Notes under the pieces: generated by a model
Told to the model about the DNA's origin: nothing
The model's database searches: none
What the model saw: the letters and a program-made list of their open reading frames with translations, nothing else
Source of the DNA: an uncultured Chloroflexota bacterium
Lineage (GTDB): Bacteria; Chloroflexota; Anaerolineae; Aggregatilineales; Phototrophicaceae
Length of the DNA: 32,899 nt
Reading direction: 5' to 3'
NCBI GenBank assembly: GCA_903877335.1
Contig: CAIRDJ010000381.1
Span: 1-32,899, forward strand
Part shown: in pieces, positions 28,759-31,978 of the stretch
Layout of the letters: each line of letters opens with the position of its first letter
How positions within the stretch are numbered: position 1 is the stretch's first letter
Program-made: the position numbers and the translations under genes

Positions 28759-28976
28759 CAACCTCCATGATTCACGCCTCCGCGTGCAAACAACCGAGCA
28801 TGGCGCGTGACCGCACCCTTGACCCAGACGACAGATGCATCCAAAGCAGTCCTGCTTCCATCACGTAAAAATGACGGGTGCACAGGCTTCTTTTTAGTGA
28901 TAGATTTTCCATAAATCCTCTCACCCTATTCCTCGCTGTCGCGGTATACTCCTCCGTTAAAAACGGTAGCGCACTC
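28759..28976 (+). other. Intergenic stretch before the aminotransferase-like gene
   Basis: No gene is supported. CACGC-CTCC-GCGTG at 28773-28786 is a short hairpin 14 bases after the phosphatase stop and may end that transcript. TATACT near 28954 could be a -10 for the next gene; no good -35 was seen. Confidence 0.35.
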
Positions 28977-29882
28977 ATGAAGCAAACTTATAACCCACTC
29001 AATCAGAACCTGCTCATCAACATTAACGGCACACTCCATCACCGCGACCATGCCGGCATCAGCCCCTTCGACTCTGCTGTGCAGGGGGGCGACGCGGTTT
29101 GGGAAGGCTTACGCCTGTACAACGGGCGCATCTTCAAACTCAATGAACACCTTGACCGCTTGCGCCATTCCGCCCTCGCGCTTGCCTTCACCGATATTCC
29201 CAACCACGCCACGCTCACCGAAGAGATCAGCAAGACGCTGGAGGCAAACCACATGACCGACGGCGTACACATCCGCCTGACGCTCACACGCGGGGTGAAA
29301 TACACCAGCGGGATGGATCCACGCTTGAACACCGCCGGACCGACCTTGATTGTGTTGGCGGAACACAAGCCCCCTGTGTATGACCGTGACGGCATCCGCC
29401 TCATCACGTCTGCTATTCGGCGCATTCCCCCGGATTGTGTCGATCAAAACATTCACTCATGCAACCTGCTCAATTCCATTTTGGCGAAGATTCAGGCGAA
29501 CGCCGCGGGGGTAGATGACGCGCTCATGCTTGACCTCAACGGGTTTGTGGCAGAAACCAACGCCACCCACGTTTTCATCGTATTCAACGGGGTCATTTAT
29601 ACGTCGCACACCGATTCTTGCCCAGAAGGGATCACACGCCAAACGGTGCTAGAACTGTGTGCCACACACGGCATCCCCCACCAAGTCAAGAACCTCTCGC
29701 TCAGTGAAGTGTATCGCGCGGATGAAATGTTCTGTACGGGGACGATGGGCGAGTTAGTGCCCGTAGTGGAATTGGACGGGCGCAAAATTGGTGGCGTTGA
29801 CCGCCCCATGTTGGAGCGCGTCGCGGGGCACTTCCGCACGCTCACCCAAACCGAAGGCGTGCCTGTGGTTTCGCTAGATTGA
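28977..29882 (+). CDS. Class IV aminotransferase-fold protein (IlvE/DAAT-like) lacking the PLP lysine
   Basis: A 301-residue protein of fold-type IV. The open frame extends to 28878, but the ATG at 28977 begins the conserved part. Family features are present: GGDAVWEGLRLYNGRIFKL, then EHLDRLRHSA with the phosphate-contact arginine, ALMLDLNGFVAETNATHVF with the conserved Glu193, CPEGITRQTV and TGTMGELVPV with Thr256. In D-amino-acid and branched-chain aminotransferases the Schiff-base lysine lies just before the helix that here reads SCNLLNSILAK (DAAT: I-K-S-x-N-L-L). At that position the codon is CAC, His160 (NIHSCNLL). The nearest downstream lysine belongs to the separate, conserved LAK. It would be branched-chain aminotransferase-like by fold, but transamination is doubtful. 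It stands alone, with a bidirectional hairpin behind it. Confidence 0.8.
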   Translation: MKQTYNPLNQNLLININGTLHHRDHAGISPFDSAVQGGDAVWEGLRLYNGRIFKLNEHLDRLRHSALALAFTDIPNHATLTEEISKTLEANHMTDGVHIRLTLTRGVKYTSGMDPRLNTAGPTLIVLAEHKPPVYDRDGIRLITSAIRRIPPDCVDQNIHSCNLLNSILAKIQANAAGVDDALMLDLNGFVAETNATHVFIVFNGVIYTSHTDSCPEGITRQTVLELCATHGIPHQVKNLSLSEVYRADEMFCTGTMGELVPVVELDGRKIGGVDRPMLERVAGHFRTLTQTEGVPVVSLD

Positions 29883-29894
29883 CGGAAGCCTGAG

Positions 29895-29923
29895 ACACGG
29901 GGGCTTATCGCAAACCCCCGTGT
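29895..29923. terminator. Bidirectional terminator between convergent genes
   Basis: ACACGGGGG (29895-29903) and CCCCCGTGT (29915-29923) form a perfect 9-bp stem with an 11-base loop, placed in the 49-base gap between the aminotransferase-like stop and the Rieske stop. Confidence 0.65.
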
Positions 29924-29931
29924 GGATAATT

Positions 29932-30291
29932 CTACCCGATTTGTACCTTGACCTGATCGTCATGTACCACAACCGAGAAGGTCTTTGCTTTCATTTTGGG
30001 GTCAACATAGGCTTGACCGTTACGAATATCAAACTCCCAACCATGCCACCCACAGCGCAAAACATAGCCTGCGTCTTTGTAGATGAATGTTTCCCCAGTG
30101 GTGAATTCGGTCGTGCCAGTGAGCGGGCCCATACATAAGCTGGCGGCATCGTGCGGGCAACGATTGTGCAGGGCATAGTAACTGCCATTCACAAAAAACA
30201 CGCCAACGCTGCGCCCGTCGCAGTCAATGATCCTGCGTTCGCCCGATTGCATCTCACCGACTTTGCACACCACGTATTCACGCTTTGACAT
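29932..30291 (-). CDS. Rieske [2Fe-2S] ferredoxin
   Basis: A 119-residue single Rieske domain. The cluster ligands are Cys45 and His47 (NRCPHDAASLC) and Cys80 and His83 (LRCGWHGWEFD), the standard C-x-H / C-x2-H pair. The length and lack of a catalytic domain match the small soluble ferredoxins that pass electrons to oxygenases. It is the last gene of a three-gene operon, 2 bases after the amidohydrolase stop. The neighbour at the head of the operon looks like a diiron oxygenase, which is a natural acceptor. No reductase gene lies in the window, so the electron source would be elsewhere. Confidence 0.92.
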   Translation of the reverse strand: MSKREYVVCKVGEMQSGERRIIDCDGRSVGVFFVNGSYYALHNRCPHDAASLCMGPLTGTTEFTTGETFIYKDAGYVLRCGWHGWEFDIRNGQAYVDPKMKAKTFSVVVHDDQVKVQIG

Positions 30292-30293
30292 GC

Positions 30294-31376
30294 CTACACC
30301 GCCAGCAATTCATTGATGCGTGGGTAGGTCTTGGTCGCGTTTTCCCACAGGACTTGATGCTTGATGTCCTCTGGCAACGGGAGCTGATCCACGTTGTCAT
30401 AATCCCAGTGCGGGTAATCGCTCGCAAACATGAGCGTTTCTTTGGCGTGCATGGCATCTAGGATGGAATGCAGGTGTTCCTTGTTTGCCGGGCGTTCCAG
30501 AGGTTGCGTGGTGAAGCGGATGTGCTCACGGAAATATTCGCTGGGCAGGCGACGCAACCAAGGGGTTTCCTTGCGCAATGCTTTATAGTCCGCGTCCAAC
30601 CGCCACAAGATGGGGGGCACCCATGCCACGCCACACTCGGTGACGATGAACTTCATGTTGGGGAATTTCTCAAAAATCCCGTGCGCAATGGTGCTGGCGA
30701 CGTGCGTGATGGCAGGTTGTGCCAACATGGCATGTGCTTCCCAGAAGTAGGTTGGAGGTCCGCCACCGACTGGGGTATGGTTCAAGCCACCTTGACCGCC
30801 TAAGTGAATCGCCACGGGCAGACCCATCTCATGCGCTGCTTCCCAAATGGGCCAATAGTGGGGGTTGCCATAGGGCAACGTAGATCCGTGCGACATCAAC
30901 ACTTGCACAATGCGCGGATGATCGCCAATACGGCGGATTTCTTTTGCTGCCCCTTGCGGGTCTTGGGGAGCAACCACGAGGGATGCCACAAAGCGATCAT
31001 CACGGGGCAACCACGTTTCAATCATCCAACTGTTGTAAGCATTGGTCAACGCGGTGGCGTAATGGGGGTTGGCTAAGGTGGAGGCTTCGATCGCCTCTTC
31101 GCCATTCAGCAAGCCCATGGTGATGTTGTATTTATCGAGGTGATGCTCTTTCATGTAGGTGTAGTGTTCATCATCCGTTTGTGGTCGAATGTCACTACGG
31201 CGAAAATCTTCCGGATGCAACCATGGACGATGCCCCGCAGGAAACCCCTTATTGTGACCGGGACGTTCACCACGTTCTAGGTAGTCACGCCATACGGGTT
31301 CCAAATAGGGCTTCAACACATTGGCATCTGACCAATCATTGTGCAAATCACAATCAAAAATGAGGCGTTCGGTCAT
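30294..31376 (-). CDS. Amidohydrolase family metal-dependent hydrolase (ACMSD-like)
   Basis: A 360-residue TIM-barrel hydrolase or decarboxylase of the amidohydrolase_2 group. The first metal motif is FDCDLHND (Asp10, His12, giving D-x-H), the strand-5 histidine lies in VAIHLGG, a second histidine region is ITHVASTIAHGIFEKFPNMK and the final aspartate lies in MFASDYPHWDYD. Relatives include 2-amino-3-carboxymuconate semialdehyde decarboxylase and other ring-cleavage-path enzymes. It sits between the putative oxygenase (9-base gap) and the Rieske gene (2-base gap). It probably acts on the product or substrate of the oxygenase; the compound cannot be deduced. Confidence 0.85.
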   Translation of the reverse strand: MTERLIFDCDLHNDWSDANVLKPYLEPVWRDYLERGERPGHNKGFPAGHRPWLHPEDFRRSDIRPQTDDEHYTYMKEHHLDKYNITMGLLNGEEAIEASTLANPHYATALTNAYNSWMIETWLPRDDRFVASLVVAPQDPQGAAKEIRRIGDHPRIVQVLMSHGSTLPYGNPHYWPIWEAAHEMGLPVAIHLGGQGGLNHTPVGGGPPTYFWEAHAMLAQPAITHVASTIAHGIFEKFPNMKFIVTECGVAWVPPILWRLDADYKALRKETPWLRRLPSEYFREHIRFTTQPLERPANKEHLHSILDAMHAKETLMFASDYPHWDYDNVDQLPLPEDIKHQVLWENATKTYPRINELLAV

Positions 31377-31385
31377 CTTTAGCTC

Positions 31386-31937
31386 CTACAGATAGCGCGA
31401 TTCAGCGAACACTCGGCGCACCATCGGTTCAAAGAACTCCAGTGGGAGCGATTCAAACTGAGGATCAAAGCAATTCTGGTCATACTTCGCACAGAACTCG
31501 GCGCAGTCGTCATACCATGGATGATCTTTCCACTCATCACGTGCGTTGCGGTCTGCCCCAACATGATGCCCATAGTAGTACAACTGGAACACCCCGTGAT
31601 ACTTGACGATCCAACACAGGCGTTCTGGGAAGTACGGTTTCATGATTGCCCCCACCATCTCACCATGCGCCAGCGGTGCCAACACATCCCCAATATCATG
31701 GATGAGCGCGGCAACCACATATTCTTCATCTTTGCCATCTTGATAGGCGCGGGTTGCGGATTGGAGCGAATGCTCAAAGCGAGTGACTTGGTAGCCACTC
31801 AAAGATTTTTTGAGATCGCTAACGGCTTGCAAGATACGATCAGGAAGGTGGGAGACGTACACGTGTTCTAAGCGTCCTAGAATATCATAATCCGCTTTCG
31901 TGCCGTCTTCCATGCGCGTAAAACTAACAGTTTCCAT
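31386..31937 (-). CDS. HD-domain protein, putative mixed-valent diiron oxygenase (PhnZ/MIOX-like)
   Basis: A 183-residue protein annotated by most tools as an HD hydrolase. The first histidine (His56) lies in RFEHSLQSATRAYQDG, and the HD pair is His80-Asp81 in ALIHDIGD. The 24-residue gap between them matches PhnZ (His34, His58). Further ligands are likely His91 (LAHGEMV), His114 (VKYHGVFQ) and Asp153 in CAKYDQ, the same K-Y-D placement as in myo-inositol oxygenase. PhnZ and MIOX use two irons to cleave C-P or C-C bonds with O2. The ATG at 31937 follows GGAAG by 6 bases and is preferred over the open frame to 31964. It heads the operon with the amidohydrolase and the Rieske ferredoxin. Confidence 0.72.
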   Translation of the reverse strand: METVSFTRMEDGTKADYDILGRLEHVYVSHLPDRILQAVSDLKKSLSGYQVTRFEHSLQSATRAYQDGKDEEYVVAALIHDIGDVLAPLAHGEMVGAIMKPYFPERLCWIVKYHGVFQLYYYGHHVGADRNARDEWKDHPWYDDCAEFCAKYDQNCFDPQFESLPLEFFEPMVRRVFAESRYL

Positions 31938-31949
31938 AAAAGTCTTCCA

Positions 31950-31978
31950 ATTATAAAATACCAACCGCTAGAGTGTAA
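31950..31978 (-). promoter_or_regulatory. Promoter of the HD/amidohydrolase/Rieske operon
   Basis: On the minus strand TTACAC (31978-31973) and a perfect TATAAT (31955-31950) are 17 bases apart. Transcription would start very close to the ATG at 31937, giving an almost leaderless message. Confidence 0.5.

Follow-up and report, generated by a model that had tools for sequence, protein, structure and literature searches.

A three-gene operon pairing an amidohydrolase-related oxygenase with a candidate HD-domain diiron oxygenase: a likely catabolic module in an uncultured Chloroflexota bacterium

Results

By analysing a 32,899-nucleotide stretch of DNA from an uncultured Chloroflexota bacterium (the window), we identified an operon of three genes encoding a candidate HD-domain mixed-valent diiron oxygenase, an amidohydrolase-related dinuclear oxygenase (ARO) and a small Rieske [2Fe-2S] ferredoxin, the presumed electron donor of the ARO. 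The two oxygenases probably act in sequence. The whole account, in which hydroxylation by the ARO and its Rieske protein is followed by HD-catalysed cleavage of a small, perhaps betaine-like substrate, is the one we favour on balance. The enzyme types are known, whereas the pairing of an ARO with an HD oxygenase is apparently undescribed. The preliminary description of this DNA had proposed a new catabolic module, and the trio looks like one that the literature searched does not describe; literature searches returned nothing relevant on a link between AROs and choline, on SAR11 HD oxygenases or on Sinorhizobium carnitine/Rieske systems.

Operon organization

The three genes lie on the minus strand in the order HD (31386-31937, 183 aa, ATG start), ARO (30294-31376, 360 aa) and Rieske (29932-30291, 119 aa), with intergenic gaps of 9 bp and 2 bp, and the open reading frames were found exactly where they had been proposed. 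The promoter-like motif TTACAC-17-TATAAT (31950-31978, minus strand), which had also been proposed, is present but weakly indicated, because such sites are barely above chance in the window (5 observed versus 2.5 +/- 1.7 expected). Its -10 element lies 12 bp upstream of the HD ATG, so the mRNA would be almost leaderless. An alternative promoter-like sequence, TTGACG-18-TACACT, is located at 32001-31972 on the same strand. A TTG start at 31964 for the HD gene is unsupported, since METV, encoded from the ATG at 31937, is where the HD homologues begin.

Downstream, a strong 13-bp hairpin without a T run (29895-29923, minus strand; -21.3 kcal/mol, z -4.4) lies where the Rieske and aminotransferase genes converge and likely marks the 3' boundary of the operon. 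The open reading frame of the class IV aminotransferase spans 28878-29882; its 76% orthologues align from residue 32 onward only, and the start is therefore probably an internal ATG (MKQTYNPLNQ).

The middle gene encodes a putative dinuclear oxygenase

As judged from its sequence, the product of the middle gene is almost certainly a dinuclear (Fe/Fe or Mn/Fe) monooxygenase of the ARO type. It matches Pfam Amidohydro_2 (PF04909) at 1.6e-45, and its best sequence matches in the PDB are 8SM7, 8SM6 (SfbO), 8SM9 and 8SM8 (E 1.6e-80 to 4e-59), followed by AibH1H2 (AibH2) and PtmU3; decarboxylases rank far lower, except for one between AibH1H2 and PtmU3. The ligands D25, H27, H211, E265, D337 and H340 of AibH2 correspond to D10, H12, H191, E247, D320 and H323 of the ARO, and the second-shell D342 of AibH2 corresponds to D325. 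In 40 relatives, none of these seven residues varies. The ranking by sequence recurred in a fold search, run with a model of low confidence (pLDDT 54, three sequences only).

ACMSD-like enzymes carry a mononuclear Zn/Mn His-x-His site, without the Glu and the DxxH motif of AROs. The middle gene had been taken for such a hydrolase, an assignment that has to be abandoned for hydrolase and decarboxylase alike: the expected His-x-His site is absent, the protein has D-x-H, Glu247 and D320-Y-P-H323 instead, and the nearest solved structures are oxygenases of the ARO group (amidohydrolase-related dinuclear oxygenases; PMC10811679, PMC10401708, PMC7782822). Like the AibH1H2-AibG-AibF system and SfbO, the latter likewise from a Chloroflexota species, the ARO of the window has the PF04909 TIM-barrel fold, the same six ligands and an adjacent Rieske ferredoxin. 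On the other hand, it is a single subunit whereas AibH1H2 is a heteromer, and compared to AibH1H2-AibG-AibF the operon lacks a reductase gene and includes a second oxygenase, the HD protein. By its family, the ARO would possess a dinuclear centre and carry out O2-dependent C-H hydroxylation.

AROs are common among Chloroflexota, 65 of the 400 genomes searched having a match (E <= 1e-30), but the nearest one there is only 46% identical to that of the window; orthologues at 59-62% identity are found in Alphaproteobacteria and on a Pseudomonas plasmid. To our knowledge, no biochemistry has been reported for this subgroup of about 60% identity.

The Rieske ferredoxin and its electron route

The small protein matches Pfam Rieske at 7.3e-16 and, with C45-P-H ... 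C-G-W-H83 (residues 45-83) in a single domain, has the C-x-H-xn-C-x2-H pattern of the stand-alone (AibG-like) Rieske ferredoxin that had been recognized earlier. It very likely serves the ARO as electron donor. An adjacent small Rieske gene accompanies about 90% of AROs (PMC10401708), and in the ARO literature AibG and AibF are the electron carriers to AibH1H2. ARO-Rieske pairs without an HD gene were found in Sinorhizobium, Mesorhizobium, Paracoccus, Pseudohalocynthiibacter, Pseudomonas and haloarchaea, as well as in two more genomes. The Rieske protein was assigned to the ARO because of these pairs and because no external reductant is required for HD oxygenases to regain their mixed-valent active state (PMC8177086). 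The suggestion that the ferredoxin serves the HD diiron centre is rejected on the same grounds, together with the HD loci that have no Rieske gene.

Several of the ARO-Rieske pairs adjoin a reductase, for which the best NCBIfam model is GbcB, with a score below the cut-off. Such conserved clusters occur in six loci (L022-L027: Sinorhizobium pSymA, and Mesorhizobium, Paracoccus, Pseudohalocynthiibacter and Pseudomonas plasmids), mostly with a LysR gene and some with betaine-aldehyde dehydrogenase (BADH), a choline-binding protein (SBP) or a BCCT transporter; they are candidate quaternary-ammonium monooxygenase systems. The AROs of the Sinorhizobium, Paracoccus and Pseudohalocynthiibacter clusters with a GbcB-like reductase and BADH are 60-62% identical to that of the window. 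Unlike the window's operon, these clusters have no HD gene nearby and include an extra reductase, LysR, and often BADH or a choline transporter. On two haloarchaeal plasmids (L028, L029), ARO-Rieske pairs (ARO 35-40% identical) adjoin genes for a glycine-betaine SBP or a BCCT transporter.

The 94%-complete source assembly yielded neither a PF00175 (FNR-type) nor a PF14759 reductase, although the PF00175 search gave matches in 10 of the 14 control genomes. One may therefore speculate that the role falls to a thioredoxin-reductase-like ferredoxin reductase.

The HD protein has the predicted fold of a mixed-valent diiron oxygenase

The motifs on which the first assignment of the HD protein was based are all present, namely RFEHSLQSA, HDIGD (H56 and H80 being 24 residues apart), the later histidines and K-Y-D. 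The predicted ligands H56, H80-D81, H91, H114 and D153 are invariant in 38 relatives, and the H...HD...H...H...D six-ligand motif defines the MIOX/PhnZ/TmpB HD oxygenases (PMC8177086). In Pfam, the HD family is matched above the cut-off, and MIOX weakly, below it. The predicted structure (pLDDT 96.6) was compared with the PDB, where the first twelve matches were PhnZ, TmpB and then MIOX; the TM scores to PhnZ and TmpB are 0.63-0.70, and MIOX is distant (fold search E 0.046). The structure prediction, the fold search and the six ligands thus bear out the PhnZ/MIOX-type oxygenase fold that had been suggested, and an HD phosphohydrolase was rejected, the top fold matches being oxygenases. It is likely that the HD protein is an O2-dependent oxygenase; by analogy with these enzymes, it would use an Fe(II)/Fe(III) cofactor for a four-electron oxidation without an external reductant.

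The HD gene follows different hydroxylase genes in other genomes

In a scan of 84,980 genomes, at least 551 relatives of the HD protein were found, and the neighbourhoods of the best 80 of these, together with plasmid loci, were examined (32 SAR11 loci and 58 others). Among the 58 non-SAR11 loci, the gene that precedes HD on the same strand, at a distance of up to 120 bp, encodes a TauD/TmpA-like enzyme at 10 loci, a PhyH protein at 7 and the alpha subunit of a Rieske oxygenase at 1; other loci include the ARO/Rieske operon of a Rhizobium plasmid, and some have no adjacent hydroxylase. The partner classes were checked with Pfam on representatives. For the TauD partners, the best model is TmpA, below its cut-off, followed by gamma-butyrobetaine dioxygenase, and for the Rieske oxygenase partner it is GbcA, far below the cut-off. 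We read these loci as a hydroxylation step supplied by four unrelated oxygenase classes: TauD/TmpA-like, PhyH, Rieske oxygenase and ARO. At two roseobacter loci (L013, 6646-7647; L094, 8624-9610), a gene of the PF04116 fatty-acid-hydroxylase family, with the Pfam assignment made for L013 only, comes after the HD gene and is possibly a fifth partner class.

For many HD relatives, no hydroxylase gene is adjacent; this applies to the 32 SAR11 loci, where the HD gene lies behind purF and is mostly followed by a gshA-like gene. At L039, L055, L091 and about 30 other Pelagibacteraceae loci, the HD gene is directly behind purF, with gshA-like and gshB-like genes usually next. At a related Pelagibacteraceae locus (L084), the HD gene is located 36 bp behind a TauD enzyme gene.

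In the HD tree, the window's protein groups with those of two Actinomycetota whose ARO/Rieske pair, 1.5-2.1 kb away, differs from the window's, while the Rhizobium trio falls inside a clade of HD proteins with PhyH partners; this topology requires the ARO pairing to have originated at least twice. It bears on the possibility that the ARO/Rieske pair and the HD protein are functionally separate and share an operon by chance or through a common regulator. Such a reading is consistent with the wide occurrence of each without the other and with the rarity of the exact trio, but it is unlikely, given that the trio arose at least twice, that the two Actinomycetota, the closest HD relatives, have kept ARO/Rieske genes nearby despite rearrangement, and that in other relatives a different hydroxylase occupies the same place. 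In these Actinomycetota (L030, 8001-12100; L031), the ARO/Rieske genes are accompanied by genes for a molybdopterin oxidoreductase and a cytochrome b-like protein, and the HD gene is inverted and still clustered.

Rarity and origin of the trio

The HD gene is absent from the 60 nearest relatives searched. Among 400 Chloroflexota genomes, only three others have a close HD homologue, without an ARO nearby, and further Chloroflexota homologues (58-60%; genome scan) likewise lack one; an ARO is present in 2 of 32 HD-bearing genomes or records. The three genes were seen in a single operon only in the window and on Rhizobium plasmids, and more loosely in two Actinomycetota. A lack of conservation in related genomes had been named as a finding that would refute the module; within Chloroflexota the trio is indeed not conserved, although it recurs in Rhizobium. 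The exact trio is thus uncommon, and horizontal transfer probably brought it together. A contaminant contig is not indicated, because 76% orthologues of the neighbouring aminotransferase are present in two members of the same family and the GC content of the trio (0.526) is similar to that of the window (0.538). In a search for an empty site in these two relatives, no synteny beyond the aminotransferase was found and the insertion point was not located.

Discussion

Proposed reaction sequence

We infer the electron route, the order of the steps, the bond cleaved and the substrate class as follows. Electrons from NAD(P)H would pass through a reductase that the operon does not encode to the Rieske ferredoxin, which would reduce the ARO at its dinuclear centre (Fe/Fe or Mn/Fe). 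This enzyme, assigned to its family by sequence, would then introduce a hydroxyl group at an unactivated C-H bond in a small substrate. The hydroxylated product would bind to the HD protein at its Fe(II)/Fe(III) centre, where no external electrons would be required. Finally, the HD protein may oxidatively break the bond next to the new hydroxyl, as PhnZ, TmpB and MIOX do, and this step would yield a shortened carboxylate.

The layout resembles the PhnY/PhnZ and TmpA/TmpB systems, in which a hydroxylase gene is likewise paired with a gene for an HD mixed-valent diiron oxygenase for two O2-dependent steps, and PhnZ and TmpB share the fold and the ligand motif with the HD protein of the window. 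However, PhnY and TmpA are Fe/2-oxoglutarate enzymes, whereas in the window this part falls to an ARO and its Rieske donor.

The substrate

The nearest solved HD relatives being PhnZ and TmpB, an organophosphonate tandem must be considered, in which the ARO takes the place of PhnY/TmpA, the HD protein cleaves a C-P bond and phosphate is released. Some HD relatives have TmpA-like dioxygenase partners, and 2-aminoethylphosphonate perturbs the EPR of the ARO SfbO (PMC10811679). Nevertheless, this reading is quite unlikely. The HD protein scores 39 bits against the PhnZ model TIGR03276 and 36 bits against TmpB (cut-offs 214.6 and 300), and in neither the window nor the annotated neighbourhoods examined was a phosphonate transport or phn gene recognized. 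It has L46-S-G-Y49 at the position of the YxxE substrate-binding lid (loop) of PhnZ and TmpB, and an invariant Gln118 four residues after the fourth His, where PhnZ has Lys108. The latter residue is a feature of the phosphonate subfamily. The substrate is thus probably not a phosphonate, and since these phosphonate-binding features are missing, the bond broken is more likely C-C than C-P. MIOX shares the diiron fold and the six-ligand motif with the HD protein and also lacks the YxxE lid, but it is distant, longer and acts alone on inositol. The HD relatives tested, including those of SAR11, behave alike, so by sequence the protein is assigned to an unnamed subfamily that is neither PhnZ nor TmpB; we know of no biochemistry for it.

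The window's own neighbour genes gave no direct hint, and the best guess comes from the neighbours of the same ARO or HD genes in other species, which point to a trimethylammonium compound or a similar amine. They encode the choline-binding SBP ChoX and BADH (each over its cut-off), a BetA-like/choline-dehydrogenase-like enzyme, BKACE, BCCT or glycine-betaine transporters, and the TmpA/GBBH-like and GbcA-like partners. There is about an even chance that the substrate is a quaternary-ammonium compound.

The original scheme, in which the Rieske protein keeps the HD diiron oxygenase active or feeds it electrons and an ACMSD-like hydrolase processes the product, was right about the single operon and the HD fold but is highly improbable, as the ligands of the middle protein (D-x-H, Glu, D-Y-P-H) are those of AROs and its closest solved relatives are oxygenases, the Rieske protein accompanies the ARO rather than the HD protein, and HD oxygenases do not need an external reductant (PMC8177086).

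Implications

AROs, a newly recognized class of oxygenases, number in the hundreds, yet hardly any of their native substrates are known, and the pairing with an HD oxygenase, together with the neighbours of orthologous AROs, points to a short, testable list of substrates for them. The HD subfamily is common in marine bacteria, including SAR11, and lies far below the PhnZ cut-off; metagenome surveys with loose criteria could mistake it for phnZ. In published surveys, Pelagibacterales account for 45% of marine phnZ sequences, and estimates of phnZ abundance disagree widely (PMC9381506, PMC10574752). The SAR11 HD proteins score about 40 bits against the cut-off of 214.6, and the family that aligns closely with them is without the substrate features of PhnZ, so some phnZ of the surveys may belong to this subfamily. 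A bolder reading, somewhat less likely than not, is that the widespread HD subfamily, with its many SAR11 members, acts generally as the C-C-cleaving second enzyme for hydroxylated betaine-like compounds; the first-step hydroxylase would be interchangeable among the four unrelated oxygenase classes, and in this operon the Mn/Fe or Fe/Fe ARO would take that role. If the hydroxylase class was indeed exchanged repeatedly ahead of a single cleaving enzyme, the pathway would offer a clear example of non-orthologous replacement in catabolism.
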